In this document: positions 410 through 13,544 of the stretch, one piece after another
Numbering within the stretch: position 1 is the stretch's first letter
How the letters are laid out: the number at the start of each line of letters is the position of its first letter
From: Oscillospiraceae bacterium
GTDB lineage: Bacteria; Bacillota; Clostridia; Oscillospirales; Oscillospiraceae
Length of the DNA: 13,544 nucleotides
Reading direction: 5' to 3'
Assembly: GCA_029065305.1 (NCBI GenBank)
Contig: JAIEIQ010000312.1
Span: 1 to 13,544, forward strand
Made by a program: the position numbers and the translations under genes
Notes under the pieces: model-generated
Database searches by the model: none
What the model saw: the letters and a program-made list of their open reading frames with translations, nothing else
What the model was told of the DNA's origin: nothing

Positions 410-1651
410 CTATTCTACCACAATGCCCTTCTCTTCAAAAGCCCTCAGCAAGTGGTCCATATCCCCGGGAATGGAGATGGGCTCGCCGCAGGCCGCGATA
501 GCGTTGGCGACATCCTTCAGCCCGTTGCCGGTGACGACGCTGACCACCGAGGCGTCCTTCTCGATCCGCCCCGCCTCGCAGAGCTTTTTGAGCCCCGCCG
601 CGCCGGTGACGCCGGCGGGCTCCCCGAACACGCCGCAGGTCCGTCCCAGCAGCTTCTGCGCCGCCATAATCTCCTCGTCGGTGACGTTCACCACCAGGCC
701 ATTGCTCTCCCGGACAGCCATAAGGGCCTTGTCCGCGTTCCGGGGCACGCCCACGGCGATGGAGTCCGCCAGGGTGTTCTCCTCCATGGGGCGCCAGGGC
801 TCCCCGGTCTCGATGGCCCGGTTGAGGGGGCAGCAGCCCGCCGCCTGGGCGGAGATGAGCCGGGGGAGGCGGTCGATAAAGCCGATGGCGTGCAGGTCCT
901 TGAGCCCCTTCCAGAGCCCGGCGATGGTACAGCCGTCGCCCACAGAGATGGCGATATAGTCGGGGACCTCCCAGTTCAGCTGCTCCATGATCTCCAGAGC
1001 GACGGTCTTCTTGCCCTCGGAGAGGTAGGGGTTGATGGCGGCGTTGCGGTTGTACCAGCCCCACTTCTCAATCGCGGCCTTGCTCAGCTCGAAGGTCTCC
1101 TCGTAGCTGCCCTGGACGGAGATCACCGTGGCCCCGAAGGTCATCAGCTGGGCCACCTTGCCCTTGGGGGCCCGGGAGGGGACGAAGATATAGGTCTTAA
1201 GCCCCGCCGCCGCCGCGTTCCCCGCCAGGGAGGAGGCCGCGTTGCCGGTGGAGGAGCAGGCGATGACCTTGGCTCCGGCCTCCCGCGCCTTGGCCACCGC
1301 CATGGCGCTGGCCCGGTCCTTCAGGGAGGCGGTGGGGTTGATGCCGTCGTCCTTGACATAGAGCCGGGCGATGCCCAGTTGTCCGGCCAGAGCGTCCGCC
1401 CGGTACAGGGGGCTCCAGCCCACCCGCAGGGGGGTGTTCTCCGTGCTCTCCTCCACCGGCAGCAGCTCCCGGTAGCGCCACATGGAGTTGTCCCGCCGCG
1501 CCGCCAGCTTCTCCTTGGTCAGAACGGTTTTGATGTAGTCGTAGTCGTAGACGATGTCCAGAATCCCCCCGCAGGAGCAGTTGGTCAGATTGGGGGTGGC
1601 TTCGTAGATTTTTCCGCATTTGACGCATTTCGCGTGTTTGACGTTTTTCAT
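410..1651 (-). CDS. thrC: Threonine synthase-type PLP-dependent enzyme
   Basis: The product has 413 residues and belongs to the fold-type II PLP family. A zinc-ribbon-like N-terminus (Cys9, Cys12, Cys25, Cys27) precedes the catalytic domain, as in the shorter, archaeal-like threonine synthases. NPTASLKDRAS (105-115) contains the likely Schiff-base lysine, Lys111. SSTGNAASS (133-141) is the substrate/phosphate-binding loop and SVGDGCTIAG is the glycine-rich PLP-phosphate site. Threonine synthase converts O-phosphohomoserine and water to threonine and phosphate. The start is set by AGGAG six bases before the ATG (minus-strand positions 1662-1658). No hom or thrB neighbour is present, so the gene is not in a threonine operon here. 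Given the PLP enzyme and amino-acid-type catabolic genes nearby, a related beta-/gamma-elimination substrate cannot be excluded. The family assignment is strong and the exact substrate moderate. Confidence 0.8.
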   Translation of the reverse strand: MKNVKHAKCVKCGKIYEATPNLTNCSCGGILDIVYDYDYIKTVLTKEKLAARRDNSMWRYRELLPVEESTENTPLRVGWSPLYRADALAGQLGIARLYVKDDGINPTASLKDRASAMAVAKAREAGAKVIACSSTGNAASSLAGNAAAAGLKTYIFVPSRAPKGKVAQLMTFGATVISVQGSYEETFELSKAAIEKWGWYNRNAAINPYLSEGKKTVALEIMEQLNWEVPDYIAISVGDGCTIAGLWKGLKDLHAIGFIDRLPRLISAQAAGCCPLNRAIETGEPWRPMEENTLADSIAVGVPRNADKALMAVRESNGLVVNVTDEEIMAAQKLLGRTCGVFGEPAGVTGAAGLKKLCEAGRIEKDASVVSVVTGNGLKDVANAIAACGEPISIPGDMDHLLRAFEEKGIVVE

Positions 1652-1742: not shown

Positions 1743-1751
1743 TGCTATCAT
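1743..1751 (+). promoter_or_regulatory. Possible extended -10 promoter for the membrane XRE gene
   Basis: TGCTATCAT matches an extended -10 element (TG-N-TATCAT) and lies 28 bases before the chosen ATG at 1780. No convincing -35 hexamer is found at normal spacing; TTGACA at 1698-1703 is too far away. This is the only promoter-like signal I can name in the 128-base divergent gap 1652-1779, and it supports 1780 rather than 1750 as the start, because 1750 lies inside this element. Confidence 0.35.
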
Positions 1752-1779
1752 GGAGCCATCACAGACACGGAGGTGCCCC

Positions 1780-3474
1780 ATGGAGGATGGGATCGGAAGG
1801 AAGATCAAAGCGGCCCGGGAGGGTGCGGGGCTCACCCAGGAGGACCTGGCTGAGCACATGGAGGTCAGCCGCCAGGCGGTGAGCAAGTGGGAGGCGGATC
1901 TCAGCCGCCCCAGCTCGGAAAACCTCCTGCGGCTGTGCAGGCTGCTGGGCCTGGACTGGGAGGAGTTGGCCGGGGAGACGGAGGAGATTGTGCCGCCGGA
2001 GGAGGAGAGACAGGGGCCGGAGATCAGCCGCGAGAAAAAGGACGCGAATATGGCGCTGCTCCTGCCGTTTCTGATCCTCGGCGGGGGACTGTTCACCCTT
2101 TTGGTCCTCTTTTTCTTCAACGCCGGTCCCCCCAGAAACACGATTGACAGCGCCCCGCCGCCGGGGGGTGTTCCGGCCGCCCCAATCACCACGGTGCATT
2201 CCTTCCCGGAGGCCATTGCGCTGACGGCCAAGGAGGTTCGGGACTTCGGAAACACCCGGAACGGCGGGGAGAAGGTCCCTGCCGCCGAGGTGGAGAAAAA
2301 TCAACTGTACGTCTACTGGTTCCCAGGGCCGTACATGGAGCTCGCCTTCTATCTGCGCCAGGATTGGGCAAATGACAAGCCCTACTATGTGCTATTCGCG
2401 GTCTATACCAACAGCCCGGAGGGCGGAAAGGATTATACCGTCATTACCTCCCTGGCGGAGGGGCCGGAAGCCGAAACGCCGGAGTTCACGGACTTTGAAG
2501 CCCTGGGCTATTCCGGCTGCAAGGTCACGGTTCAAAGCGAATTCGGCCCGTTTACCTACTATTTCGCGCTGGACAGGAACGGCGTGCCGGAGCTGTATTT
2601 TGTGGTGGACGGGGAAACCTATGAGCAGGACATTGACGCCGACGGAGAGAATGAGATTATCTCTCCCGATTCCCAGTACATTTTCTACGACCGGGGCATG
2701 GAGGACTACTGGGCCTACCAGATAGACGGGGAATTGCCGGAGGGCTTCGTTCTGGACTTCACCTACTGTCAGGAGGAGGACGGGACCATCCCGGACACCC
2801 CCGCCTTCTGCCTGCAAAGCGCGGACGGAGAATGGAAATCCTACCGCCATCTCTTTGGGGACAAGCTGATACCGGGAGAGGCAGCTTGCAGCAAGAACGC
2901 CCTGACGGACCTGCTGTGTCCGGACGTAAAGGACACGGTGTTCACCTTCACCTACACCGGGGAGATGTACGACAGCGAGACGGACCCGGACCTGCCCTTC
3001 GAGAACCCGGACTACCCCACCCACCGCCAGCTGGCCTATATGGCCATGCAGACCCTCTATGACCTCACCGGCGTAAAGCTGGAGCGGTGCTACGCCCACG
3101 CCACGGACTACAGCGTGTACCTCTCCACGGACCGGCGGCACGACTTCGGCACATTCTTCACCTTCGACCGGGACCCCCGGTGGCAGTCCTATGAGAAGAG
3201 TGTCGGCGGGTTTATGCTCACATGGAAGGGCGAGCACGCGGAGGATTCCCCCATCGACCCGGCCCTCTTCCGGATCCCCGGCGGGACCGAGGAGGAGCAG
3301 TGCCTCTGGCTCTACGAACACGCCCGGCTCTTCCAGTGCGGAGAGATTGTGGATATTGGGTGGGATATCGTCACCCGGCTGTTTTTGGAGGATGGAAGCT
3401 TCTTTGAAGCCTCCTCCAATATAAACGGCTATGCCGAGCTGCGGGGGCCGTATCCGGAGGGATTTTCCCACTGA
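1780..3474 (+). CDS. Membrane-anchored XRE-type HTH protein with large outer domain
   Basis: The product has 564 residues. Residues 5-60 form an XRE helix-turn-helix (LTQEDLAEHMEVSRQAVSKW, followed by EADLSRPS and 'LLGLDWEELAG'). An acidic linker and a short basic patch (REKK, 84-87) lead to one hydrophobic segment at about 91-113 (ALLLPFLIL... LLVLFFF). The basic residues before it predict that the HTH is cytoplasmic and the roughly 450-residue, aromatic- and acid-rich remainder is outside. I do not recognise that outer part as a known enzyme or binding domain. This plan (DNA-binding head, membrane anchor, outer sensor-like domain) suggests one-component signalling across the membrane, by inference. 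An upstream in-frame ATG at 1750 lacks a ribosome site; GGAGG at 1769-1773, six bases before 1780, decides the start. The gene is divergent from the threonine-synthase-like gene and followed by a strong terminator. Confidence 0.75.
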   Translation: MEDGIGRKIKAAREGAGLTQEDLAEHMEVSRQAVSKWEADLSRPSSENLLRLCRLLGLDWEELAGETEEIVPPEEERQGPEISREKKDANMALLLPFLILGGGLFTLLVLFFFNAGPPRNTIDSAPPPGGVPAAPITTVHSFPEAIALTAKEVRDFGNTRNGGEKVPAAEVEKNQLYVYWFPGPYMELAFYLRQDWANDKPYYVLFAVYTNSPEGGKDYTVITSLAEGPEAETPEFTDFEALGYSGCKVTVQSEFGPFTYYFALDRNGVPELYFVVDGETYEQDIDADGENEIISPDSQYIFYDRGMEDYWAYQIDGELPEGFVLDFTYCQEEDGTIPDTPAFCLQSADGEWKSYRHLFGDKLIPGEAACSKNALTDLLCPDVKDTVFTFTYTGEMYDSETDPDLPFENPDYPTHRQLAYMAMQTLYDLTGVKLERCYAHATDYSVYLSTDRRHDFGTFFTFDRDPRWQSYEKSVGGFMLTWKGEHAEDSPIDPALFRIPGGTEEEQCLWLYEHARLFQCGEIVDIGWDIVTRLFLEDGSFFEASSNINGYAELRGPYPEGFSH

Positions 3475-3480
3475 ATAAAG

Positions 3481-3514
3481 AAGGGAGGGCGGGGCGGTCA
3501 GCCCCGCCCTCCTT
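3481..3514. terminator. Bidirectional GC-rich terminator hairpin
   Basis: A perfect 12-bp stem, 3484-3495 (GGAGGGCGGGGC) with 3501-3512, closes a 5-base loop. It sits exactly between the stop of the plus-strand membrane XRE gene (3474) and the stop of the minus-strand PLP gene (3523), so it probably ends both transcripts. The plus-strand tail is only moderately T-rich (TTGCGGTTTCTT). Confidence 0.75.
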
Positions 3515-3522
3515 GCGGTTTC

Positions 3523-5004
3523 TTACAGGTTTTTCAGCAGGCCGGTAGCCTCGTTGAACTCGTTGATCAGCTCATCCAGCTCCTTGGCCTGGGCGTGGAC
3601 GGCGTCCCAGGTGCCCTTGGTGTCGTACCACAGATCGTTGAGGTCGTGGACATCCCGCGCCTGCTGCTCCACCCAGGTGTAGTACTTGAGGTTGTGGACC
3701 CGCTTGCGCTCGGTGTAGGTCAGCTCCAGCAGGTTGTCGGTCTTGAGCCCCAGCATGTGCAGGTGGTGGTCCAGAGAGGCCTCGTGGACGTTGTAGGCCC
3801 CGTGCATCTCGTTGAGCTCCTCGATGCGGCTCTGGTACATGGCGGCGGAGTCGGTGAGGACGGTGCCCACCACGTCGTGCTCGGTGAGCTCGTAGTATTT
3901 CGCCAGCTTGATGCAGCAGAGGATGTTGGCAATGCCGGAGATGCCCAGCCAGGACAGCTTCTCGATAAGAGCCTCGTCCAGATGCAGCTCCTCCCGGAGG
4001 TATTTCTTCCCGTCCTCGGTGTTGAACAGCCGCAGCAGCCGCTGGGAGTCCTCGTCGTCAATGGCGATAGCCATGTCGGTGTTCTTCACGTTGTGGATCC
4101 AGGGGATGTGCTTGTCGCCGATGCCCTCGATCCGGTGTCCGCCGAAGCCGTTGTTGACAATGGTGGGGCACTGCAGGGCCTCGCCCACCGCCAGCTTGAG
4201 GTGGGGATAGCGCTCCTTGAGCAGATCGCCGGCGCTCATGGTTCCGGCGGAGCCGCTGGTAAAGCAGGCGCCCGCGAAGCTGTCGCCGGGGCGCTTCACG
4301 GCCTCAAACAGATCCGCCAGGGCATAGCCGGTGACGTTGTAGTGCCACAGGGGGTTGCCCATCTCCTCAAACTGGTTGAAGATCATGTACTGGGGATCCT
4401 GCTTGAGCTCCCAGGTCTTGTCGAAGATCTCCTTGACGTTGCTCTCGCAGCCCGGGGTGGCGATGACCTCGCCGGCGATGGTCTTGAGCCAGTTGAACCG
4501 CTCCTGGCTCATCTCGGCGGGCAGAATCGCGACGCTCTCGCAGGCCAGCAGCTTGGAGTTGAAGGCGCCGCCCCGGCAGTAGTTGCCGGTGGAGGGCCAG
4601 ACGGCCTTGTGCCAGGTGGCGTCGAACTGCCCCGTCACCAGCCGGGGGGCCAGGCAGCCGAAGGACGCGCCGACTTTATGGCACCCGGTGGGGAACCACT
4701 TGCCGGCCATGGCGATGATCCGGCAGGGCACGCCGGAGAGGCTGGAGGGGATCTCCACGTAGTTGGGCACCGCCTGGAACAGACCGCCGGACTCCTTGGC
4801 CTCGTTCTTCCAGGTGATGCGGAACAGGTTCAGGGGGTTCACGTCCCACAGGCCCACGGTTTTCAGCTTCTCCTGAATCGCGCCGGGGATGGTCTCGGGG
4901 TTCTGCATCTGGGCGATGGTGGGGATGATGACGCTGTTCTCCTTGGCCTTGGCCACGTTCTTGGCCAGGACTTCTTTGTTGATGGTCAGATCGATCTTGC
5001 TCAT
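3523..5004 (-). CDS. Uncharacterised fold-type II PLP-dependent enzyme (cysteine synthase/lyase-like)
   Basis: The product has 493 residues and is a distant member of the tryptophan-synthase-beta superfamily. PTGCHKVGASFG (105-116) holds the probable PLP lysine, Lys110. PSTGNYCRGGA (137-147) matches the carboxylate-binding loop, and SGSAGTMSAGDLLKE (250-264) resembles the glycine-rich PLP-phosphate loop. It is far longer than cysteine synthases (about 310 residues) and than YgeX (about 400), with an extra 130-residue helical tail rich in His, Glu and Tyr. Its ATG overlaps the stop of the upstream regulator gene (ATGA, 5001-5004), and AGGAGG lies about ten bases ahead, so the two are co-transcribed and translationally coupled. 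Next to ygeY/ygeW, it may cleave an amino-acid product of that pathway, such as 2,3-diaminopropionate; this is inference from context. The superfamily call is firm and the substrate unknown. Confidence 0.8.
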   Translation of the reverse strand: MSKIDLTINKEVLAKNVAKAKENSVIIPTIAQMQNPETIPGAIQEKLKTVGLWDVNPLNLFRITWKNEAKESGGLFQAVPNYVEIPSSLSGVPCRIIAMAGKWFPTGCHKVGASFGCLAPRLVTGQFDATWHKAVWPSTGNYCRGGAFNSKLLACESVAILPAEMSQERFNWLKTIAGEVIATPGCESNVKEIFDKTWELKQDPQYMIFNQFEEMGNPLWHYNVTGYALADLFEAVKRPGDSFAGACFTSGSAGTMSAGDLLKERYPHLKLAVGEALQCPTIVNNGFGGHRIEGIGDKHIPWIHNVKNTDMAIAIDDEDSQRLLRLFNTEDGKKYLREELHLDEALIEKLSWLGISGIANILCCIKLAKYYELTEHDVVGTVLTDSAAMYQSRIEELNEMHGAYNVHEASLDHHLHMLGLKTDNLLELTYTERKRVHNLKYYTWVEQQARDVHDLNDLWYDTKGTWDAVHAQAKELDELINEFNEATGLLKNL

Positions 5005-5690
5005 GGCTTGTTTTCCTCCTGTTTCATATCAATGTACGAATATAGGGTATACTTGGAGATGCCGAAGTGCTTGGCGATCTTGTCGCCGCTCTTGGTGACA
5101 AGGAACGCGCCGTGCTGGCTGAGAAACTGAATGGCCCGAACCTTGTCGTCCTTGTTCATCAGGGCCACCGGCTTGCCCACCAGGGCCACGCTCTGCTCAA
5201 TGAGGCCGTCCAGCAGGTCGCTGACGTTGACCACGGCCACGCTCTGCTCCTTCTTGTCCGGCTCTGTCCGAATCAGCCCGCCGATGGCCTGCTCCGCCAT
5301 CAGCAGGGCCGAGATATCGAGGTTGATGGAGAGAATCCCGGACACCGCCCCCTCCGGGGAGCGGATGTAGATGGTGGAGGACTTGAGGACCTTCCCCCCC
5401 TCGGTGCGGCAGAGGTAGGCCAGGCTGTCCTGGGGGTCCGCGTCGCCCCCCAGAAGCTGCTCGAGCACCACGTTGGAGGGGCCGTCCCCCACCTTCCGCC
5501 CGGTGACATGGCCGTTCTCAATGTGGACGATGGAGTGGGCCGGGTCCTCTGCGGACAGATCGTGGACCACCACCTCGCAGCTGGGCCCGAACTGGGCCGC
5601 CAGAGCCGCGGCAATCTGCTGGAGCGTCGCCAGCTGATGGGTATCCAAAGCGTTATCACCCTCCCTACCCGTTGTTTTCAAATCCATCAT
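5001..5690 (-). CDS. YheO/DauR-like transcriptional regulator (PAS-like sensor plus HTH)
   Basis: The product has 229 residues. Residues about 22-135 match the YheO-type PAS-like sensor domain (EVVVHDLS, 'SIVHIENGHVTGRKVGD', 'GILSINLDIS'). Residues about 178-222 form the C-terminal helix-turn-helix (MNKDDKVRAIQFLSQHGAFL, then 'IAKHFGISKYTLYSYI') as in E. coli YheO and the D-arginine utilisation repressor DauR. It is a cytoplasmic one-component regulator that probably senses a pathway metabolite. I chose the ATG at 5690, with GGAG about nine bases upstream. A longer reading to 5768 would run through the AT-rich promoter of ygeY and lacks a ribosome site. The gene is divergent from ygeY, sharing 161 bases of control region, and its stop overlaps the start of the PLP-enzyme gene. 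Control of both arms of the locus is therefore likely (inference). Confidence 0.85.
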   Translation of the reverse strand: MMDLKTTGREGDNALDTHQLATLQQIAAALAAQFGPSCEVVVHDLSAEDPAHSIVHIENGHVTGRKVGDGPSNVVLEQLLGGDADPQDSLAYLCRTEGGKVLKSSTIYIRSPEGAVSGILSINLDISALLMAEQAIGGLIRTEPDKKEQSVAVVNVSDLLDGLIEQSVALVGKPVALMNKDDKVRAIQFLSQHGAFLVTKSGDKIAKHFGISKYTLYSYIDMKQEENKP

Positions 5691-5716
5691 ACCAGCATCT
5701 CCACAAGATTGCAATG

Positions 5717-5754
5717 GGTTTTTCAGAAAAATTTTTAGGTTTTCAAAAATTTTG
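5717..5754. repeat. AT-rich direct repeats 21 bp apart, candidate operator
   Basis: GGTTTTTCAGAAAAATTTT starting at 5717 recurs as GGTTTTCAAAAATTTT starting at 5738. The copies begin exactly 21 bp apart (two helical turns). Within the first, TTTTTCAGAAAAA (5719-5731) is a perfect dyad around one base. The A- and T-tracts come in rough helical phase, so intrinsic bending is also possible. The repeats end right before the -35 of the ygeY promoter. A role as binding site for the YheO/DauR-like regulator, or as an UP-element, is inferred. Confidence 0.5.
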
Positions 5755-5755
5755 T

Positions 5756-5783
5756 TTGACAACTGCATTTTCTATGATATGAT
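5756..5783 (+). promoter_or_regulatory. Sigma-A promoter of the ygeY operon
   Basis: A perfect -35 TTGACA (5756-5761) and a -10 TATGAT (5778-5783, five of six bases) are separated by 16 bases. Transcription would start near 5790, giving an untranslated leader of about 60 bases before ygeY. This is the best promoter in the window. No equally clear promoter for the opposite regulator gene could be assigned, although TTGTCA on the other strand (5762-5757) overlaps this -35. Confidence 0.75.
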
Positions 5784-5820
5784 AGGAGTCAAGAGGGCCG
5801 CGGAGGGCCCAGAGAACCAA

Positions 5821-5863
5821 ATGGATTTTGAAATTGATGGAGGGTGCGACCATGGATTTTGAA
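5821..5863 (+). repeat. 12-base direct repeat duplicating the start of ygeY
   Basis: ATGGATTTTGAA occurs at 5821-5832 and again at 5852-5863, where it is the true start of ygeY. The first copy opens a 13-codon frame ([13 protein letters not shown]) that contains the ygeY ribosome site and stops at 5862, just inside ygeY. Its own nearest GGAGG (5802-5806) is 14 bases away, which is poor spacing. It could be a leader peptide or a relic of a local 31-bp duplication. Confidence 0.45.
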
Positions 5864-7219
5864 GCGATCAAGAAGGCGGCGGAGGGCTACCGGGAGGACA
5901 TGAGCAGGTTCCTGCGGGACCTCATCGCCATCCCCAGCGAGAGCTGCGAGGAGGAGGGCGTCATCAAGCGGACCATCGTGGAGATGGAGCGGCTGGGCTT
6001 CGACAAGGCGGAGATCGATCCCGAGGGCAACGCCCTGGGCTGGATGGGCCAGGGGGAGAAGATCATCGCCTTCGACGGCCACATCGACACCGTGGGCATC
6101 GGCAACATCGACAACTGGGAGCAGGACCCCTACAAGGGCTACGAGACCGAGGACGTCATCTACGGCCGGGGCGGCTCCGACCAGGAGGGCGGCGTGGTCT
6201 CCGCCGTGTACGGGGCGAAGATCATGAAGGACCTGGGCCTCATTCCCGAGGGCTACCGGATCCTCGTCACCGCCACGGTCCAGGAGGAGGACTGCGACGG
6301 CCTGTGCTGGCAGTACATCCACAACGAGGACGGCATCACCCCGGAGTTCGTGGTGTCCACCGAGCCCACCGACGGCGGCATCTACCGGGGCCACCGGGGC
6401 CGCATGGAGATCCGGGTGGACGTAAAGGGCATCTCCTGCCACGGCAGCGCCCCCGAGCGGGGGGACAACGCCATCTATAAAATGGCCGACATCGTCCGGG
6501 AGGTCCGGGCTCTCAACGAGAACGACGACGCGGAGGGCACCGAGATCAAGGGCCTGGTGAAGATGCTCAACCCCCAGTACAACCCGGAGCACTACGAGGA
6601 CGCCCGGTTCCTGGGCCGGGGCACCTGCACGGTTTCCCAGATCTTCTACACCTCCCCCAGCCGCTGCGCTGTGGCGGACAGCTGCGCCGTCTCCATCGAC
6701 CGGCGCATGACCGCCGGGGAGACCTGGGACAGCTGCCTGGACGAGATCCGGGCCCTGCCCAGCGTGAAAAAGTACGGCGAGGACGTGAAGGTCAGTATGT
6801 ATATGTACGACCGCCCCGCCTGGACCGGCCTGAAGTACGAGACGGAGTGCTACTTCCCCACCTGGATCAACAAGGAGAGCGCCCCCCATGTCCAGGCCCT
6901 GGCCGACGCCCACAAGGCGCTCTACGGCGAGAAGCGCGTCGGCCACCCCGACGCCATGAAGCTGCGGGACCGGCCCCTGATTGACAAGTGGACCTTCTCC
7001 ACCAACGGCGTGTCCATCCAGGGCCGGTACGGCATCCCCTGCGTGGGCTTCGGCCCCGGCGCGGAGAGCCAGGCCCACGCTCCCAACGAGATCACCTGGA
7101 AGCAGGATCTGGTGACCTGCGCCGCCGTGTACGCCGCCTGCGTGGGCCTCTACAAGGGCAAGGGCGACGAGGACGTGTGCGTCTACCGGGGCGGCAAAAC
7201 CGGCAACGATATCAAGTAA
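5852..7219 (+). CDS. ygeY: YgeY-family M20 metallohydrolase
   Basis: The product has 455 residues. It is a cytoplasmic, probably di-zinc hydrolase of the M20 (ArgE/DapE) fold and closely follows E. coli YgeY as I recall it ('[13 protein letters not shown]', '[12 protein letters not shown]', '[15 protein letters not shown]', '[13 protein letters not shown]'). Likely metal and catalytic residues are His77, Asp79, Asp110, Glu145/Glu146, Glu171 and His409. E. coli YgeY is about 403 residues; the extra length here lies at about 222-255, 363-377 and in the tail after 432. GGAGG at 5839-5843, eight bases before the ATG at 5852, decides the start over TTG 5828 and ATG 5837. It is the first gene after the promoter and lies 50 bases before ygeW. 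The family is linked genomically to selenium-dependent molybdenum hydroxylases and anaerobic purine breakdown; the exact bond cleaved is not established. Confidence 0.92.
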
Positions 7220-7269
7220 GGAAGTAAGGTACATCGCATAAATTGACTTAATAAAGGAGAAGATACGCT

Positions 7270-8463
7270 ATGAGCAAGACAGAAAAGCTGGCCCAGCACC
7301 TGGAGAAGCTGAAGATCAACGGCATGTACAGGGACGACTTCTACTGGACCTGGGACAAGACGGACGACGAGCTGGACGCCATCTTCACCGTGGCCGACGC
7401 TCTGCGGGATCTGCGGGAGCGGAACATCTCCACCAAGGTTTTCGACTCCGGCCTGGGCATCTCCATCTTCCGGGACAACTCCACCCGCACCCGGTTCTCC
7501 TTCGCCAGCGCCTGCAACCTGCTGGGCCTGGAGGTCCAGGACCTGGACGAGAAGAAGAGCCAGATCGCCCACGGCGAGACCGTCCGGGAAACCGCCAACA
7601 TGGTCTCCTTCATGGCCGATGTCATCGGCATCCGGGACGACATGTTCATCGAGGAGGGCCACAAATACCAGAAGACCTTCATGGACGCCCTGGACGAGGG
7701 CTATGAGAAGGGCATCCTGGAGCAGCGGCCCACCCTGGTCAACCTCCAGTGCGACGTGGACCACCCCACCCAGTCCATGGCGGACCTGCTGCACGTCATT
7801 CATGAGCTGGGCGGCGTGGAGAACCTGAAGGGTAAGAAGGTGGCCATGACCTGGGCCTACTCCCCCAGCTACGGCAAGCCCCTGAGCGTGCCCCAGGGCA
7901 TCATCGGTCTGTTCACCCGATTCGGCATGGACGTGGTCCTGGCCCATCCCGAGGGCTATGAGGTCATGCCGGAGATCGAGGAGATCGCCAAGAAAAACGC
8001 CCAGGCCAGCGGCGGGTCCTATACGAAGGTCAACTCCATGGAGGAGGCGTTCAAGGACGCGGATATTGTGTATCCCAAGTCCTGGGCGCCCTTCAAGGCC
8101 ATGGAGAAGCGGACCCAGCTCTACCGGGAGGGCGACAAGGCCGGCATCGACACCCTGGAGCAGGAGCTGCTGGCCCAGAACGCCCAGCATAAGGACTGGA
8201 CCTGCTCCGAGGAAATGATGAAGCTGACGAAGGACGGCAAGGCCCTGTATATGCACTGCCTGCCCGCCGATATCTCCGGGCTGAGCTGCGCGGAGGGCGA
8301 GGTGGACAACAGCGTCTTTGACCGCTATATCGAGCCCCTGTACAAGGAGGCGTCCTTCAAGCCCTATATCATCGCGGCCATGATCTTCCTGAGCAAGGTC
8401 AAGGACCCCGTGGCCGCTCTGCGGGAGCTGGAGAAGAACGGCGAGAAGCGGAAGGCGCTCTAA
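7270..8463 (+). CDS. ygeW: Knotted carbamoyltransferase YgeW
   Basis: The product has 397 residues, essentially the length of E. coli YgeW (396), a catabolic transcarbamylase with a deep trefoil knot. STRTR (71-75) binds carbamoyl phosphate; HPTQSMADLL (165-174) and MHCLPAD (328-334) are the other hallmark motifs of the aspartate/ornithine carbamoyltransferase fold. Family knowledge: it is thought to act in the degradative direction, turning a ureido compound plus phosphate into an amine and carbamoyl phosphate, with 2,3-ureidopropionate proposed as substrate. It uses neither ornithine nor aspartate in the E. coli case. GGAG at 7256-7259 lies ten bases before the ATG. It sits between ygeY (50-base gap) and the SLH gene (33-base gap) with no terminator on either side, so it is in one operon with them. 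The downstream carbamate kinase would consume its carbamoyl phosphate. Confidence 0.95.
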   Translation: MSKTEKLAQHLEKLKINGMYRDDFYWTWDKTDDELDAIFTVADALRDLRERNISTKVFDSGLGISIFRDNSTRTRFSFASACNLLGLEVQDLDEKKSQIAHGETVRETANMVSFMADVIGIRDDMFIEEGHKYQKTFMDALDEGYEKGILEQRPTLVNLQCDVDHPTQSMADLLHVIHELGGVENLKGKKVAMTWAYSPSYGKPLSVPQGIIGLFTRFGMDVVLAHPEGYEVMPEIEEIAKKNAQASGGSYTKVNSMEEAFKDADIVYPKSWAPFKAMEKRTQLYREGDKAGIDTLEQELLAQNAQHKDWTCSEEMMKLTKDGKALYMHCLPADISGLSCAEGEVDNSVFDRYIEPLYKEASFKPYIIAAMIFLSKVKDPVAALRELEKNGEKRKAL

Positions 8464-8496
8464 CCATCAAACAAAATACGAGAGAGGAGCATCTTC

Positions 8497-10473
8497 ATGA
8501 AAAAAGCGGTACTGCGCAGTCTGACCTCCGCCCTGTGCGCCCTCGTGCTGGTGCTGGGCCTTATTCCCTCCGCCCAGGCGGCGGGGACCCCGGCGGTGTC
8601 CGACAACGCGCTGGATAATTGCTATGGCTTTAACGCAAATGCTGTAAAATCTTATCTGTACATCAATGCCTCCGGCGGTCTGACCCGGGTGGAGGCCCTT
8701 ACCAACAAGGAGATCGTGGTGGAGGACTACAGCCCCTCCTTCGCCCTGCTCTCCCAGCGGACGATTCCCGGGGAGCTGGAGTATTACGCCGGCTTCTTCC
8801 CCGGCCAGAGCTACAACTTCTTCGTCTTCGTCCAGCGCAACAATAGCGAGAGCGACAGCGTGGAGGTCGTCCGGGTGGTCAAGTACGACAAGAGCTGGAA
8901 CCGCCTGGGCCATGCCAGCGTATACGGGGCCAACACCAGGATGGCCCTCTCCAACAGCACCCTCCGCTGCGCGGAGGCCGGCGGGATGCTGTATGTCCAC
9001 ACCGGCCATCAGATGTACAAGTCCAGCGACGGCTACAACCATCAGGCCAATATGAACATCGTCGTCCGGCAGAACGACATGCAGGTGACGGAGACCGGCT
9101 ACGGCGTGGGCGGCTACAACAACTACGTCTCCCACTCCTTTAACCAGTTTATCATGGCGGACTCCCTTGGCAACCTTCTCACCCTGAATCAGGGAGACGG
9201 CCACCCCCGCGCCCTGGTCATCCACAAGCTGTCCGGCAAGGCCGGCAGCGAGAGTATGATCTGCACCCCGTCCAACCCGGCGGCAAGCGTCCAGACCGAG
9301 CGCTTTGACGGCCCTGACGGCGAAAACCAGACCAACGTCTGGACCGGCGGCATGGCGGAGACCTCCACGGGATACCTGATGGCCTACGCCCAGCGCAAGC
9401 TGGAGGGCCAGTATGTCCCCCTTCCGCTGACCCAGATGAAGCTGGCCTACATCTCCAAGGCGGACTTCAAAACCGGCGCAACCTTTCAGATCCGGCAGTT
9501 GACCGCCAACACCAAGACGAGCCAGGTGGAGGGTACGCCCTTCCTGGTGCCCACGGGCCCCGACGGCGGCTGGATTTTGTGGAACAGCGTAAGCAATCCT
9601 GCGCCCGACTATACGGAGGTCAATGAGGGCCTGCGCTATGCAACCTACTCCGCCGACGGCTCCGTGGGCCCTGTGCAGAAGCTGAACAAGGCCGCGCCCC
9701 TGTCCGACTGCCAGCCCATCTACTACAACGGCAAGGTGGTCTGGTATGTCACCAGCAGCTCCGCCCCGGTCTTCTACTGCCTGGACGCCTCCGGCGTCAC
9801 CGCCACCCCGGCCAACGGCTTCGCTTCTCAGGTCGTGGGTGAGGCGGGTTCGGTCCCTCCCACCCGGCTTGAGGGGAACGGCGTGAGCTTCTCCGATGTG
9901 CCCGCCAGCCACCCGGCTTACAATGATATTGCAAGCTGCGTGGCTATGGGCGCGGTGTCCGGCTACACGGACGGCACCTTCCATCCGGACGAGCAGGTCA
10001 CCTATGCCCAGATAGCCGCCATGGCGGGGAAGCTTTTCTACCAGAAGGACCTGGAGAAGTTCCAGGCGGACCCCCAGTACGCTGGAAAGCCCTGGTATGT
10101 CCCCGTTATGGAGATGGCCACCGGGTTTCAATCCAGCAGCGTCATGTACAACCTGTACTACGTCCGTGGTTACACCGAGGAGTATGCCAATAAGCCCCTG
10201 CCGCGCGGTGACCTGGCTACCATAATCAGCCGGATCGCCAGCGACAAGAAGGGCTACGGCTACTACAAGGATATCGAATATCTCAAGAGCCAGGTAACGG
10301 ACTACACAGAAGGGCCCAGTGTAAAAGGAGAACACTGGGGTGAAGCCCTCGCCTGCGTCCACACAGGCCTCCTGAATCTGAAATCTGACGGCTCCTTCGG
10401 CATGTTTGACACCGTGACCCGAGCCGAGGCCTGCACAGCCCTTGTCCGGGTGTTCGACTTTGTGTACGGCTGA
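8497..10473 (+). CDS. Secreted SLH-domain protein, probably cell-wall anchored
   Basis: The product has 658 residues. A classic signal peptide (basic MKKAVLR, hydrophobic core, cleavage after SAQA at about residue 28) sends it out of the cell. Residues about 35-455 are rich in Tyr, Asn, Ser and Gly with recurring beta-strand-like stretches ('VVKYDKSWNRLG', 'YVSHSFNQFI', 'GGWILWNSVSN'), suggesting a beta-propeller-like fold, but I recognise no enzyme motif. Three SLH repeats follow: a good one at about 465-515 (SFSDVPASHPAY, 'VSGYTDGTFHPDE'), a degenerate one at about 525-590, and a third at about 612-655 ('SFGMFDTVTRAEACTAL'). SLH repeats bind secondary cell-wall polymers. AGGAG at 8485-8489, seven bases before the ATG, fixes the start. 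It lies 33 bases after ygeW on the same strand, so it is probably co-transcribed. Its presence inside a cytoplasmic catabolic operon is odd; substrate capture or a chance insertion are both open. Confidence 0.85.
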   Translation: MKKAVLRSLTSALCALVLVLGLIPSAQAAGTPAVSDNALDNCYGFNANAVKSYLYINASGGLTRVEALTNKEIVVEDYSPSFALLSQRTIPGELEYYAGFFPGQSYNFFVFVQRNNSESDSVEVVRVVKYDKSWNRLGHASVYGANTRMALSNSTLRCAEAGGMLYVHTGHQMYKSSDGYNHQANMNIVVRQNDMQVTETGYGVGGYNNYVSHSFNQFIMADSLGNLLTLNQGDGHPRALVIHKLSGKAGSESMICTPSNPAASVQTERFDGPDGENQTNVWTGGMAETSTGYLMAYAQRKLEGQYVPLPLTQMKLAYISKADFKTGATFQIRQLTANTKTSQVEGTPFLVPTGPDGGWILWNSVSNPAPDYTEVNEGLRYATYSADGSVGPVQKLNKAAPLSDCQPIYYNGKVVWYVTSSSAPVFYCLDASGVTATPANGFASQVVGEAGSVPPTRLEGNGVSFSDVPASHPAYNDIASCVAMGAVSGYTDGTFHPDEQVTYAQIAAMAGKLFYQKDLEKFQADPQYAGKPWYVPVMEMATGFQSSSVMYNLYYVRGYTEEYANKPLPRGDLATIISRIASDKKGYGYYKDIEYLKSQVTDYTEGPSVKGEHWGEALACVHTGLLNLKSDGSFGMFDTVTRAEACTALVRVFDFVYG

Positions 10474-10476
10474 TCC

Positions 10477-10540
10477 ATCGAAGAAAGGGAGTACCCCAGG
10501 GTACTCCCTTTCCGCAGAGATTCAGAGGAATTTCTTCGAT
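10477..10540 (+). terminator. Strong hairpin with overlapping outer inverted repeat, terminator-like but no U-tract
   Basis: A perfect 13-bp stem (10483-10495 with 10500-10512, 4-base loop) begins ten bases after the SLH gene stop. It is followed by CCGCAG, not by a T-run, so it is not a standard intrinsic terminator; it could stabilise the 3' end of the upstream mRNA or reduce read-through. A second perfect inverted repeat, ATCGAAGAAA (10477-10486) with TTTCTTCGAT (10531-10540), shares four bases with the inner stem, so the two full structures compete. The function is inferred. Confidence 0.45.
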
Positions 10541-10631
10541 AAAATCCCCACATATTATAGGTACCAGAAGAGAGGCGTCCGGTTTTATCTGCCGCAACAT
10601 TTTTGGGAAATTGAAAACGAGGTAATACGCT

Positions 10632-11585
10632 ATGAGTAAACGCATCGTCATCGCCCTGGGCGGCAACGCCCTGGGCAGCACCCTCCCGGAGCAGGCCGCA
10701 GCCGTGAAGATCACCGCCCGGGCCATTGTAGACCTCATCGAGGACGGCAACCAGGTAGTGGTGGCCCACGGCAACGGCCCCCAGGTGGGCATCATCAACA
10801 ACGCCATGGCCGCCCTCCAAAAGGAGGACCCCCACCAGGGCTTCACCCCCCTGTCGGTGTGCGGCGCCATGAGCCAGGCCTATATCGGCTACGATCTGCA
10901 AAACGCCTTTCGGGAGGAGCTGCTGGACCGGGGCATCTGCAATATGCCCGTGTGCTCCATCGTCACCCAGGTGGAGGTGGACCCCGCCGACCCGGCCTTT
11001 GACAACCCCACCAAGCCCATCGGCAAGTTCATGACCGAGGCGGAGGCCCAGGATTATCAGACCAAAACCGGCAATCCGGTGAAGGAGGACGCGGGCCGGG
11101 GGTGGCGGCGGTACGTGGCCTCCCCCAAGCCCAAGCACATCATCGAGGCCGGGGCTATCCGTGCCCTGACCGAGGACGGCCATCTGGTCATCTGCTGCGG
11201 CGGGGGCGGCATCCCCGTCTACCGCACGGAGAAGAACCACCTCAAGGGCGCGGCGGCGGTCATCGACAAGGACTTCGCCTCCGAGCTGCTGGCGGAGCAG
11301 CTGGACGCGGATATGCTGATCATCCTCACCGCCGTGGAGAAGGTGGCTGTCAACTTCCGGAAGGACAACGAGCAGTGGCTGAGTGCCATGACCCCGGCAG
11401 AGGCCAGGGAGTACGCCGCGCAGGGCCAGTTCGCCCCCGGCTCCATGCTGCCCAAGGTGGAGGCGGCAGTCAAATTCGCGGAGTCCAAGCCGGGCCGGGA
11501 GGCCCTGATCACCCTGCTGGAGAAGGCCCGGGACGGCATTGCCGGCAGGACCGGCACCATCATCCGGGCACCAGAAACCCATTGA
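10632..11585 (+). CDS. arcC: Carbamate kinase
   Basis: The product has 317 residues, normal for the family (about 300-315). Signature motifs in order are IALGGNAL (7-14), HGNGPQVG (46-53), CGGGGIPV (189-196), VIDKDFAS (210-217) and APGSMLPKVEAA (268-279), covering the nucleotide and carbamoyl-phosphate sites. The cytoplasmic reaction is carbamoyl phosphate plus ADP to ATP plus carbamate, which decays to CO2 and ammonia. GAGG at 10619-10622 lies nine bases ahead of the ATG. There is no arcA (arginine deiminase) or ornithine carbamoyltransferase gene nearby, so this is not an arginine-deiminase operon; the partner is YgeW, as with E. coli yqeA. The 158-base gap after the SLH gene contains a strong hairpin, so arcC may rely partly on its own promoter or on read-through. 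It is followed by a terminator and convergent genes. Confidence 0.95.
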   Translation: MSKRIVIALGGNALGSTLPEQAAAVKITARAIVDLIEDGNQVVVAHGNGPQVGIINNAMAALQKEDPHQGFTPLSVCGAMSQAYIGYDLQNAFREELLDRGICNMPVCSIVTQVEVDPADPAFDNPTKPIGKFMTEAEAQDYQTKTGNPVKEDAGRGWRRYVASPKPKHIIEAGAIRALTEDGHLVICCGGGGIPVYRTEKNHLKGAAAVIDKDFASELLAEQLDADMLIILTAVEKVAVNFRKDNEQWLSAMTPAEAREYAAQGQFAPGSMLPKVEAAVKFAESKPGREALITLLEKARDGIAGRTGTIIRAPETH

Positions 11586-11588
11586 CAA

Positions 11589-11621
11589 AAGAGCCGCAGC
11601 CCTGTCAGGGCCGCGGCTCTT
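11589..11621. terminator. Bidirectional intrinsic terminator
   Basis: AAGAGCCGC (11589-11597) pairs with GCGGCTCTT (11613-11621); after one mismatch, GCCC (11599-11602) pairs with GGGC (11608-11611) around a short loop. It lies between the stops of arcC (11585) and of the minus-strand hydrolase (11631). The minus-strand side ends in CTCTTTTGTC, the better T-tract, and the plus-strand side in CTTCTGTTGT, so both transcripts can end here. Confidence 0.85.
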
Positions 11622-11630
11622 CTGTTGTCA

Positions 11631-12806
11631 CTACCGCAGGACCTCCCGCAGAATCCCCTGGAACCCCCGGCAGGAGTCCTCCAGCTGGGCAATCTCAATG
11701 TACTCGTCCACCACATGGGCCAGGCTCTCCAGAGACGGCCCGAACCCCACGGTGGGAATCCCGCGCTCCCCGCAGAAGCTGCTGCCGTTGGTGCAGAAGG
11801 CGAAGTGGGAGAGCTCCGCCTCAATCCCGGCCCCGCGCAGGCCCGCCAGGGCCTTCTGCACCAGCGGGTGGTCCTCCTCCAGGGTCCAGGCGGGGAAGAA
11901 CCGCACCGCCTCAATGGCCTCTCCCGTCCAGCAGGGGGCGCTGTCCCGGGCCAGATACGCCCGGGCGTCCAGCTCCGGAAGCCGCGCCTTCACGCGGGCA
12001 ATGGCCTCCCGCACGGGGGCGAGCACGCTCTCCCTCGTCTCCCCCGCCAGGGTCCGGCGGTCGAAGGTCGCCCGGCACAGGCTGGGCACCACGCTGGCCC
12101 CAGGGTAGGGCCAGGAGTGGATATCCGTCAGCTCCAGGATCCCCTTCCCCAGCATGGGATGCTCCGGCGGGACAATTTTCCGGATCTCCTCCACCAGGGC
12201 CATCATGTGGTAGACCGCGTTGATCCCCTTGTCCGGGTTGGAGGAGTGGCAGCTGACCCCCTTCGACTCCACCACCACCTCCGCCCGGCCCCGCTGGCCG
12301 ATTTTCAGGGTGGTGGAGGTGGCCTCGCCGATGATCACAAAGTCCGGCTTCACCCGGTCCGCCGCCTCCCGGCAGGAGATCCCCTCAAAGCACTCCTCGT
12401 GGACCGAGCAGGACACCGCCGCCGTGCCGGCGAAATCCCGCCCTACACTGGCGGCAAACCGCGCCGCCGCCAGCACCATGGACGCCACGCTGCCCTTCAT
12501 GTCCGAGGCGCCCCGGCCATAGATCCGCCCGTTCTCAATCTGGGCGGCAAAGGGGTCGTGCCTCCAGGCGCCGGGGTCCTCCACCGGCACCGTGTCGATG
12601 TGCCCGTCCATGAGCACCGTGGGGCCGGGGCGCTTCCCGTGGATGCGGCCCAGAACGCTGCCGTAGCGGTCGATCTCCACCTGATCATACCCCAGCTTCT
12701 CCATGGTGTCCCTCAAAAATTCCGCCGCCGCCCGCTCCTCGCCGGAGACGCTGGGCCGGCGGATGAGCTCCCGGCAGAGCTCCACCAGCTGCATGTCCAT
12801 ACTCAT
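11631..12806 (-). CDS. M20 metallohydrolase, YgeY-like paralogue
   Basis: The product has 391 residues and an M20 fold (ArgE/DapE/YgeY group). Likely zinc and catalytic residues are His69 and Asp71 (DGHIDTVPV), Asp102 (YGRGASDMKGS), Glu137/Glu138 (VHEEC), Glu161 (IGEAT) and His364 (LAHVVDEY). The lid-domain signature (GRAEVVVESKGVSCHSS) and the C-terminal FFPAW, FCTNGSSFCGERGIP and VGFGPSLE parallel YgeY more than ArgE, yet it is clearly diverged from the ygeY gene at 5852. The ATG at 12806 overlaps the stop of the hydantoinase gene (ATGA), with GGGAGG eight bases ahead, so translation is coupled. This hydantoinase-M20 pairing matches hyuA next to ygeY in E. coli. It probably hydrolyses the carbamoyl- or acyl-amino-acid made by the hydantoinase; that substrate link is inference. 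Upstream in-frame extensions into the hydantoinase gene are not real. Confidence 0.88.
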   Translation of the reverse strand: MSMDMQLVELCRELIRRPSVSGEERAAAEFLRDTMEKLGYDQVEIDRYGSVLGRIHGKRPGPTVLMDGHIDTVPVEDPGAWRHDPFAAQIENGRIYGRGASDMKGSVASMVLAAARFAASVGRDFAGTAAVSCSVHEECFEGISCREAADRVKPDFVIIGEATSTTLKIGQRGRAEVVVESKGVSCHSSNPDKGINAVYHMMALVEEIRKIVPPEHPMLGKGILELTDIHSWPYPGASVVPSLCRATFDRRTLAGETRESVLAPVREAIARVKARLPELDARAYLARDSAPCWTGEAIEAVRFFPAWTLEEDHPLVQKALAGLRGAGIEAELSHFAFCTNGSSFCGERGIPTVGFGPSLESLAHVVDEYIEIAQLEDSCRGFQGILREVLR

Positions 12807-13544
12807 AGCTGATTCCTCCCTCTCTTGATAAACTGTCCTCTGTTTTCCGCCAGAACCGTCCCCCGGTCCACCGCCAGGCTCCCCCGGAGATAGACCTGCT
12901 CCGCAGCCCCCCGGACCGCCCAGCCCTCGTAGGGGGTGTAGTCCACGTTCTGGACCTGGTCCGCCGCCGTGATCACCCCCCGGGCCTCCGGATCCCAGAC
13001 CACGATGTCCCCGTCGCTCCCCGGGGCGATGACGCCCTTCCGGGGCCAGCAGCCGTAGAGCCTGGCGGGATTCTCGCACAGCACCCGGCACATGTCCTCC
13101 GCGCCGATGCGCCCCGCCGCCACACCGTAGGTGTACAGCAGCTGCCCCCGGTGCTCCACCCCCGGCAGTCCCCCGGGGATTTTGGTGAAGTCGTAGCGCC
13201 CCGCCCGCTTCTGGGCGGTGGTGAAGGGGCAGTGGTCCGTGGCCACGGTGTGGATCTCCCCGGACCGGAGGGCCTCCCACAGGGCCTCCTGGTCCTCCCG
13301 CCGCCGGATGGGCGGCGCGCACACGTACTTCGCCGCCTCCGTGAAGTCCGGGCTGTCGTAGACGCTGTCCTCCAGCAGCAGATAGTGGGGACAGGTCTCC
13401 ACGTACACCGTCTGCCCCCGCCGCCGGGCGGCGCGGACCTCCTCCAGCGACTCCCGGGCGGACAGGTGGACGATGATCACCGGCGCGGCCGTCAGCTGGG
13501 CCAGCCGCAGAAGGTGGGCCACCGCCTCCGCCTCCAGAGGGGCG
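12803..13544 (-). CDS. hyuA: Hydantoinase/dihydropyrimidinase-family amidohydrolase (C-terminal part, cut by window edge)
   Basis: The 3' part of a gene, about 247 residues; the frame stays open to the window end, so the N-terminal metal-binding motif lies outside. The visible part reads like D-hydantoinase/dihydropyrimidinase: an 'EAEAVAHLLRLA' helix, 'PVIIVHLSARESLEEV' with a metal-ligand-type histidine, 'GQTVYVETCPHYLLL', and ATDHCPFT, whose aspartate is the catalytic base position of cyclic amidohydrolases. Near the C-terminus come 'GSDGDIVVWDPEA' and the typical small beta-sandwich. The enzyme opens cyclic ureides (hydantoins, dihydropyrimidines or similar). Its stop overlaps the start of the M20 gene by four bases, so they form one operon read toward 11631. 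The name hyuA rests on context with ygeY/ygeW homologues; phenylhydantoinase, dihydropyrimidinase or allantoinase-like activity cannot be separated from this fragment. Confidence 0.88.
   Translation of the reverse strand, partial: APLEAEAVAHLLRLAQLTAAPVIIVHLSARESLEEVRAARRRGQTVYVETCPHYLLLEDSVYDSPDFTEAAKYVCAPPIRRREDQEALWEALRSGEIHTVATDHCPFTTAQKRAGRYDFTKIPGGLPGVEHRGQLLYTYGVAAGRIGAEDMCRVLCENPARLYGCWPRKGVIAPGSDGDIVVWDPEARGVITAADQVQNVDYTPYEGWAVRGAAEQVYLRGSLAVDRGTVLAENRGQFIKRGRNQL

Follow-up and report, generated by a model that had tools for sequence, protein, structure and literature searches.

A putative second half of the reductive uric-acid pathway in an Oscillospiraceae contig, with two pyridoxal phosphate enzymes as candidates for the YgeX step

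Gene content and conservation of the locus

The stretch of DNA considered here, referred to below as the window, is an entire 13.5-kb contig (13,544 nucleotides; JAIEIQ010000312.1, contig C238 in our numbering) of the Oscillospiraceae bacterium assembly GCA_029065305.1 (G000), a 1.88-Mb bin of 377 contigs that is 70% complete. Its genes very probably belong to the reductive uric-acid pathway, and they include two pyridoxal phosphate (PLP) enzymes that are candidates for the step normally carried out by YgeX. The forward strand encodes the pathway ureido hydrolase YgeY (5852..7219; TIGR03526 619.6 bits, cut-off 321.5), the knotted carbamoyltransferase YgeW (7270..8463; TIGR03316 773.2 bits, cut-off 500) and, further downstream, an ArcC/YqeA carbamate kinase (10632..11585; TIGR00746 371.6 bits, cut-off 358.25). 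On the reverse strand lie a DauR/YheO-type regulator (5001..5648; PF08348 (PAS_6) 120.6 bits and PF13309 (HTH_22) 69.8 bits) and, overlapping its open reading frame (ORF) by four bases, the gene of PLP493, a 493-amino-acid PLP enzyme with a CysK/CBS fold and N- and C-terminal extensions (3523..5004). The ATG of ygeY at 5852 is kept across the aligned genus sites; the regulator start at 5648 was picked by codon score, its frame staying open to 5768. The second PLP enzyme, a ThrC-like protein of 413 amino acids, is encoded on the reverse strand at 410..1651 (NF006050 320.6 bits, cut-off 303; TIGR00260 228.3 bits, cut-off 167.1).

The other end of the window carries, again on the reverse strand, YgeY2, a second YgeY-like M20 hydrolase (11631..12815; NF009555 453.9 bits, cut-off 321) that stays under the TIGR03526 cut-off of 321.5 with 276.9 bits. 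Its ORF overlaps that of a HyuA-type D-hydantoinase, of which the C-terminal 246 amino acids are present (12803..13543; TIGR02033 306.5 bits over model positions 215-454). The TIGR02033 cut-off of 393.25 applies to the whole protein and the window hyuA is truncated by the contig end at position 13544; the full-length relative in G107 scores 526.6 bits, over that cut-off. The original prediction, made from the letters of this stretch, had placed ygeY, ygeW, arcC, a second M20 hydrolase and a hyuA-like gene together, and all five are long ORFs where it had put them, with YgeY, YgeW and ArcC passing their family cut-offs; its YheO/DauR-like regulator is borne out by the two Pfam domains. The first gene of its range (3523-5004, PLP493) was left unidentified, and that range omitted the ThrC-like gene.

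The core of the locus is conserved in the genus, for which 25 genomes were sampled, our own included. Among the genus contigs examined, PLP493 and ygeY share a contig in 14 cases, counting the window, and beside them stand ygeW in 13, DauR in 13 (none was called in G005) and arcC in 12. The misses fall at contig ends: G024, whose contig ends inside ygeY, is without ygeW and arcC, and G019 is without arcC. With these counts, and misses of this kind, the core is no chance grouping. The layout, which had been read as a rearranged form of the E. coli cluster, is instead widespread in the group. PLP493 itself scores above 200 bits in 22 of the 25 genomes, near full length in 16 and as fragments in six. 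In the remaining three (G003, G016 and G018) ygeW lies at or beside a contig end, so that the absence looks like an assembly gap and a true loss of PLP493 was rejected; the thrC-like gene of G003 and G016 likewise runs up to the end of a contig, and G018 yielded no clear one.

For a wider view at least 592 stretches were scanned, of which at least 582 encode a PLP493 relative, and the best 80 were analysed, which makes the sample of loci lean toward close kin. These loci cover up to 10 kb on either side, many of them less, and their genes were labelled by the best match to a protein of the window or of E. coli. A thrC-like gene is present in 62, ygeW in 53, DauR in 51, hyuA and guaD in 15 each, ssnA and ygfK in 11 each and ygeX in five; clustering of the loci places a ygeY-type gene in 55 and an arcC-type gene in 42. 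In 61 of the 62 loci the thrC-like gene and PLP493 share a strand, and in 38 their open frames are separated by 200 bp or less. One of the loci, L072 of Oscillibacter valericigenes Sjm18-20, carries both genes along with DauR, ygeY, ygeW and arcC. Where at least 5 kb are available on both sides (44 loci), 33 carry ygeW, ygeX, ssnA or ygfK. Ten loci unite ssnA, ygfK, ygeW, hyuA and the thrC-like gene with PLP493 in one piece, seven of them with an arcC-type gene, and in none of the ten was ygeX present within the fetched stretch. According to the clustering, about 33 of the 80 loci have an ATP-binding cassette (ABC) importer with a PnrA-like lipoprotein (PF02608; Pfam assignment checked in L174 and L139), PnrA being a purine-nucleoside receptor. 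Among more distant relatives, the PLP493 of G032 is 67% identical. A 60% relative on G035:C28 (L047) lies beside aminotransferase-like and ABC-transporter-like genes, assigned by eye; the only uric-acid labels in that stretch go to weak carbamoyltransferase and kinase matches, which belong to an arginine-type run of genes.

The pathway genes as a whole are spread over at least three contigs of the genome. The original prediction had read the locus as one for purine or uric-acid catabolism and proposed looking for xdh, ssnA and ygfK past the end of the window; the contig ends there, and the search was positive on other contigs. The own ssnA (C259, 543.9 bits, cut-off 455.5) shares its contig with the start of ygfK (model positions 1-100 only), which lies at the contig end, and a xanthine dehydrogenase (XDH) on C134 scores 1291 bits on the selenium-dependent family TIGR03311 (cut-off 830.45). 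This XDH is 59% identical (1064.5 bits) to the enzyme from a relative's ygfK-xdh-ygeX-ygeY-ygeW-arcC cluster, and relatives of the latter above 500 bits occur in 23 of the 25 genus genomes. Family cut-offs are passed by SsnA in 20, by YgfK in 19 and by YgeW in 19 of these genomes (any YgeW match in 21). An ssnA RNA (RF03031, 60 bits, cut-off 37.3) lies upstream of the own ssnA (C259:1750-1797, L148). Given ssnA, the ygfK start, the XDH and this RNA, the genome looks like that of a uric-acid degrader using the reductive route described in PMC12507026. RF03031 is a cis-regulatory RNA family; it was found in seven of nine stretches scanned, the two without it being one ygeX and one XDH stretch, and it precedes ssnA in G107 too.

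Some genes of the window stand apart from this core. The forward-strand gene at 8497..10473 encodes a secreted SLH-domain protein (PF00395) within the operon, which agrees with the added secreted protein of the original prediction. The 2.2-kb segment that contains it (8464-10630) separates ygeW from arcC and is missing in the close relative G002, whose sequence (about 96.6% DNA identity) matches the window up to 8463 and again from 10631, ending at 11619. G002 also has no ygeY2-hyuA pair at the corresponding place; the pair recurs in G003:C45 and G016:C142, contigs that carry the thrC-like gene. The SLH gene and ygeY2-hyuA may be accessory here, or may reflect variation or an assembly (bin) artefact. 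Between the thrC-like gene and PLP493, on the forward strand (1750..3474), lies the gene of a 574-amino-acid helix-turn-helix protein whose HTH_3 domain is N-terminal and followed by a long uncharacterised region; the gene is present also in G002. A terminator-like hairpin at 3482..3514, with 14 pairs on the forward and 12 on the reverse strand, is situated where the DauR-PLP493 unit ends and has the look of a terminator in both directions. No riboswitch was detected in the window with Rfam, at gathering scores or at E values up to 0.5.

Divergent promoters and a 42-bp operator-like element

Two promoter-like sites face apart in the gap between the regulator and ygeY. The site of ygeY-ygeW (5756..5783, forward strand) is sigma-70-like, with TTGACA and TATGAT spaced by 16 nucleotides (11 of 12 positions), and that of DauR-PLP493 (5686..5714, reverse strand) has TTGCAA and TATGAT spaced by 17 (9 of 12 positions). 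The 42 bp between their -35 hexamers (5714..5755) form an operator-like element with two A/T-rich boxes. Across 11 aligned genus sites the gap contains a nearly invariant block; both hexamers of the ygeY promoter-like site are retained, and the DauR-PLP493 promoter region is conserved with its -35 hexamer altered in some sites.

A weight matrix of the 42 bp, built from the 11 genus sites, was run on 87 loci comprising 1.46 Mb (91 annotated loci minus two known genus members and two duplicates; further genus members may be among them). It gave 41 matches above 18 bits, one per locus, and none in five Markov shuffles. Every one of the 41 lies within 400 bp upstream of DauR, ygeY, ygeX, PLP493 or ssnA, and 35 are upstream of DauR. 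Some of the loci are near-duplicates (e.g. L078 and L079), so part of the matches are not independent of each other. The element precedes ygeX in L175, L176, L177 and L180, the last from a genome (G160) in which no PLP493 was found, and sits between divergent ygeX and PLP493 genes in L141. In L140, a stretch with no ygeW, it lies 112 bp upstream of PLP493 (18.7 bits). A 27.6-bit site is located upstream of uacT-ygeX in L166, which belongs to the genus member G023. The DauR-type regulator probably binds this element and would thereby switch PLP493 and ygeY-ygeW together from the divergent promoters. In L071 (G014) two copies of the element, near 8565 and 9235, lie about 670 bp apart, and an extra ORF is found between DauR and ygeY.

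Candidates for the YgeX step

The lack of ygeX in the window, already pointed out in the original prediction, stands: no window protein scores over the YgeX cut-off in the NCBIfam search, and a hidden YgeX was rejected on that ground. It is more than the detail it was first taken for, as two other PLP enzymes occupy the locus. We consider it moderately likely that the locus encodes the second half of the reductive uric-acid pathway with PLP493 and/or the ThrC-like protein in YgeX's place. In this scheme the first half (selenium-dependent XDH, YgfK and SsnA) would be supplied from elsewhere in the same genome. HyuA would open the ring of ureidomethyl-hydantoin to give 2,3-diureidopropionate, YgeW would take off one ureido group by phosphorolysis, ArcC would draw ATP from the carbamoyl phosphate, and YgeY would take off the other ureido group to leave 2,3-diaminopropionate (DAP). 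The conversion of DAP to pyruvate and ammonia would then fall to PLP493, to the ThrC-like protein or to both, as fold-type-II PLP enzymes. ATP formation through YgeW and a carbamate kinase, as originally proposed, agrees with PMC12507026; a commentary (PMC12990295) points to disagreement over which of the two ureido cleavages comes first.

PLP493 is below every NCBIfam cut-off listed (CysK 76.5 bits, cut-off 350.95), and the YgeX family TIGR03528 is absent from its eight NCBIfam matches. The predicted model of its core has fold type II of the CysK/CBS branch, with 16-26% identity in the rows compared. K110, an S-T-G-N loop, G-S-A-G-T and T-D-S are conserved in 34 of 34 rows. We regard PLP493 as a candidate 2,3-diaminopropionate lyase. 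The ThrC-like protein passes the threonine synthase family scores given above and reaches 19.6 bits on TIGR03528 (cut-off 532.25). It has A138, A205 and L210 where the three solved ThrC structures aligned have T, S and R; A138 and L210 are invariant and A205 nearly so in a 28-row alignment. The corresponding residues of the T. thermophilus ThrC, T88, S155 and R160, are presumably contacts of the substrate phosphate. A separate ThrC of about 500 amino acids is encoded in 24 of the 25 genus genomes (on C59 in our own; not seen in G023), so that the ThrC-like protein was rejected as the cell's sole threonine synthase; it is a threonine synthase paralogue and a candidate for the YgeX step. That one or both of these enzymes take this step in genomes without YgeX has, in our estimate, an even chance or slightly better. 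PLP493 is somewhat favoured, since of the two only PLP493 has its gene in the regulator's operon and behind the regulator's operator in the window.

The distribution of PLP493 follows that of the pathway. The order was sampled with 197 genomes, of which 13 have ygeW, 14 ygeX (13 over the cut-off), 16 at least one of these two and eight PLP493; all eight PLP493 genomes are among the 16 (hypergeometric P 2.6e-10, kinship ignored). Each of the 13 YgeW genomes has YgeX or PLP493, and the two without YgeX, our own and G107, both carry PLP493. PLP493 thus tracks the pathway, yet it is no strict substitute, because it coexists with YgeX in some genomes; strict mutual exclusion of the two is refuted by genomes and loci that hold both.

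It is conceivable, although we think it unlikely, that the bacterium runs the ordinary YgeX pathway, with a YgeX elsewhere that was missed through assembly gaps and both PLP enzymes in side roles. The own bin, in which no YgeX passes the cut-off, is 70% complete, the family does pass it in two of the 25 genus genomes, where ygeX neighbours uacT in G023 and an xdh gene in G017, and coexistence of PLP493 and YgeX in several genomes would fit such side roles. However, of the nine genus genomes that are at least 90% complete, all have YgeW, eight have PLP493 and eight lack YgeX over the cut-off. G107 (rounded completeness 100%) carries ssnA-ygfK-hyuA-thrC-like-PLP493-DauR/ygeY-ygeW in a single locus (L091). 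A whole-genome search for YgeX, made for G107 alone among the genomes with a one-piece cluster, returned no match at E 1e-80. The position of PLP493 in the regulator's operon and its share in the operator-like element likewise speak against this reading.

We rate as quite improbable that both PLP enzymes work in the pathway beside YgeX, PLP493 moving the DAP or albizziin skeleton to serine, phosphoserine or cysteine, or racemising DAP. PLP493 has the CysK/CBS fold, many enzymes of which replace at the beta carbon, and in G035 it adjoins a class-IV aminotransferase-like gene (family assigned by eye). In some Lachnospiraceae a serC-like gene follows PLP493 (L095, L098, L099, L102, L106, L114 and L130), with serA-like and DUF1015-like genes after it in L098, L099, L102, L106 and L114 and a DUF1015-like gene alone in L130 (Pfam checked in L098); a ygeX copy comes next after this run in L098, L106 and L114. 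L098 has two ygeX copies (TIGR03528 581.5 and 566.3 bits), one before ygeY-ygeW-arcC-PLP493-serC and one after the DUF1015 gene. These serC neighbours make a serine or phosphoserine exit conceivable. The serC group makes up eight of the 80 loci by clustering, however, and no other known DAP-consuming enzyme was seen within the stretch of the ten one-piece clusters. A more specific version, to which we give very little credence, would have PLP493 put phosphate (alternatively water or sulfide) in place of the beta-amino group of DAP and a SerC/SerA-type pair take O-phosphoserine to 3-phosphoglycerate. If this were true, uric acid's last C3 unit would feed into glycolysis with an extra ATP, compared with direct deamination to pyruvate, and the PLP493-serC-serA-DUF1015 operons of the Lachnospiraceae would be its most complete form.

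That the locus degrades another ureido compound, the purine genes elsewhere being unrelated, is the least credible alternative, for while no other purine gene was found on the window contig and the placement of the SLH gene and of YgeY2-HyuA differs from G002, the ten one-piece clusters with ssnA, ygfK and hyuA, the PnrA-like importer near the cluster and the operator-like element held in common with ygeX all oppose it.

Several observations weigh against placing PLP493 or the ThrC-like protein at the YgeX step. The predicted fold fails to separate a lyase from a beta-replacement enzyme, and the serC neighbourhoods hint at serine chemistry. PLP493 is present in five of the 11 order genomes with both YgeW and YgeX, and both YgeX-positive genus genomes as well as five of the 80 loci hold the two enzymes together. 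G091, G121, G209 and G220 keep a PLP493-thrC-like-hyuA locus apart from their ygeX locus. No YgeW match was obtained in four of the 22 genus genomes with PLP493 (G004, G007, G013 and G024, all less than 90% complete), and none of ygeW, ygeX, ssnA and ygfK is seen in 11 of the 44 loci that extend 5 kb or more to either side. As regards the element, 46 of the 87 loci have no match above 18 bits, including L139, which is near-identical to L140; the idea that it also serves ssnA or XDH in the genus was dropped, as nothing comparable was found in the genus ssnA stretches or the own XDH stretch scanned. Finally, the window genome is a fragmented bin. Side by side with these points, the PLP493 loci of G091, G121, G209 and G220 contain a gene that by eye is MocA-like, with yqeC-yqeB close by, and in L168, L169, L171 and L173 PLP493, thrC-like, hyuA and MocA-like genes are in the vicinity of yqeC-yqeB, the genomes having YgeX as well.

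Relation to known uric-acid pathways

The closest known system is the reductive uric-acid cluster of E. coli as presented in PMC12507026. YgeW, YgeY and a carbamate kinase are found in both; for HyuA the window offers the C-terminal fragment of a HyuA-type protein, and the genome has ssnA and the start of ygfK. Several features differ from the E. coli cluster described there: no YgeX was found in the window or, over the cut-off, in the bin, and PLP493 and a ThrC-like paralogue are present instead; there is a DauR-type regulator with an operator-like element, and a second YgeY-like hydrolase; the XDH belongs to TIGR03311, the E. coli-type XdhD family TIGR03313 being over its cut-off in none of the 25 genus genomes; and the genes are split across several contigs. 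What is new would be a variant of the known pathway that lacks YgeX and has uncharacterised PLP enzymes in its locus. The text of PMC12507026 contains no word beginning 'Oscillibacter', 'threonine' or 'regulator', and among the literature matches listed none names PLP493, a PLP enzyme other than YgeX or a regulator of DauR/YheO type for the pathway.

YgeX (TIGR03528) resembles the candidates in being a fold-type-II PLP enzyme encoded in the cluster, and ygeX genes of relatives have the same operator-like element, but neither PLP protein of the window belongs to its family by cut-off. PLP493 likewise differs from the CysK/CBS enzymes in its low identity and its extra N- and C-terminal parts. 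This has a practical side. In the neighbourhood survey of PMC12507026, Pfam PF00291 served as the marker of YgeX; the ThrC-like protein of the window scores 254 bits on PF00291, and therefore clusters of the one-piece type could be counted as YgeX-positive even where the stretch has no ygeX.

Should PLP493 or the ThrC-like protein close the pathway, a set of Oscillospiraceae would be predicted uric-acid degraders via a different last step, and the two enzymes would be new parts for engineered strains. Breakdown of uric acid by gut bacteria is a current target in gout, and the findings could alter both the recognition and the engineering of gut bacteria that consume uric acid. The common operator-like element would in addition offer a sequence-based handle on the genes that belong to the response.

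The swapping of pathway enzymes for others has a precedent in the UacX/UacY variant of C. difficile, again according to PMC12507026. In that variant other enzymes stand in for YgfK and YgeW while YgeX is retained, whereas in the Oscillospiraceae genome no YgeX was found and YgeW, as well as apparently YgfK, is kept.

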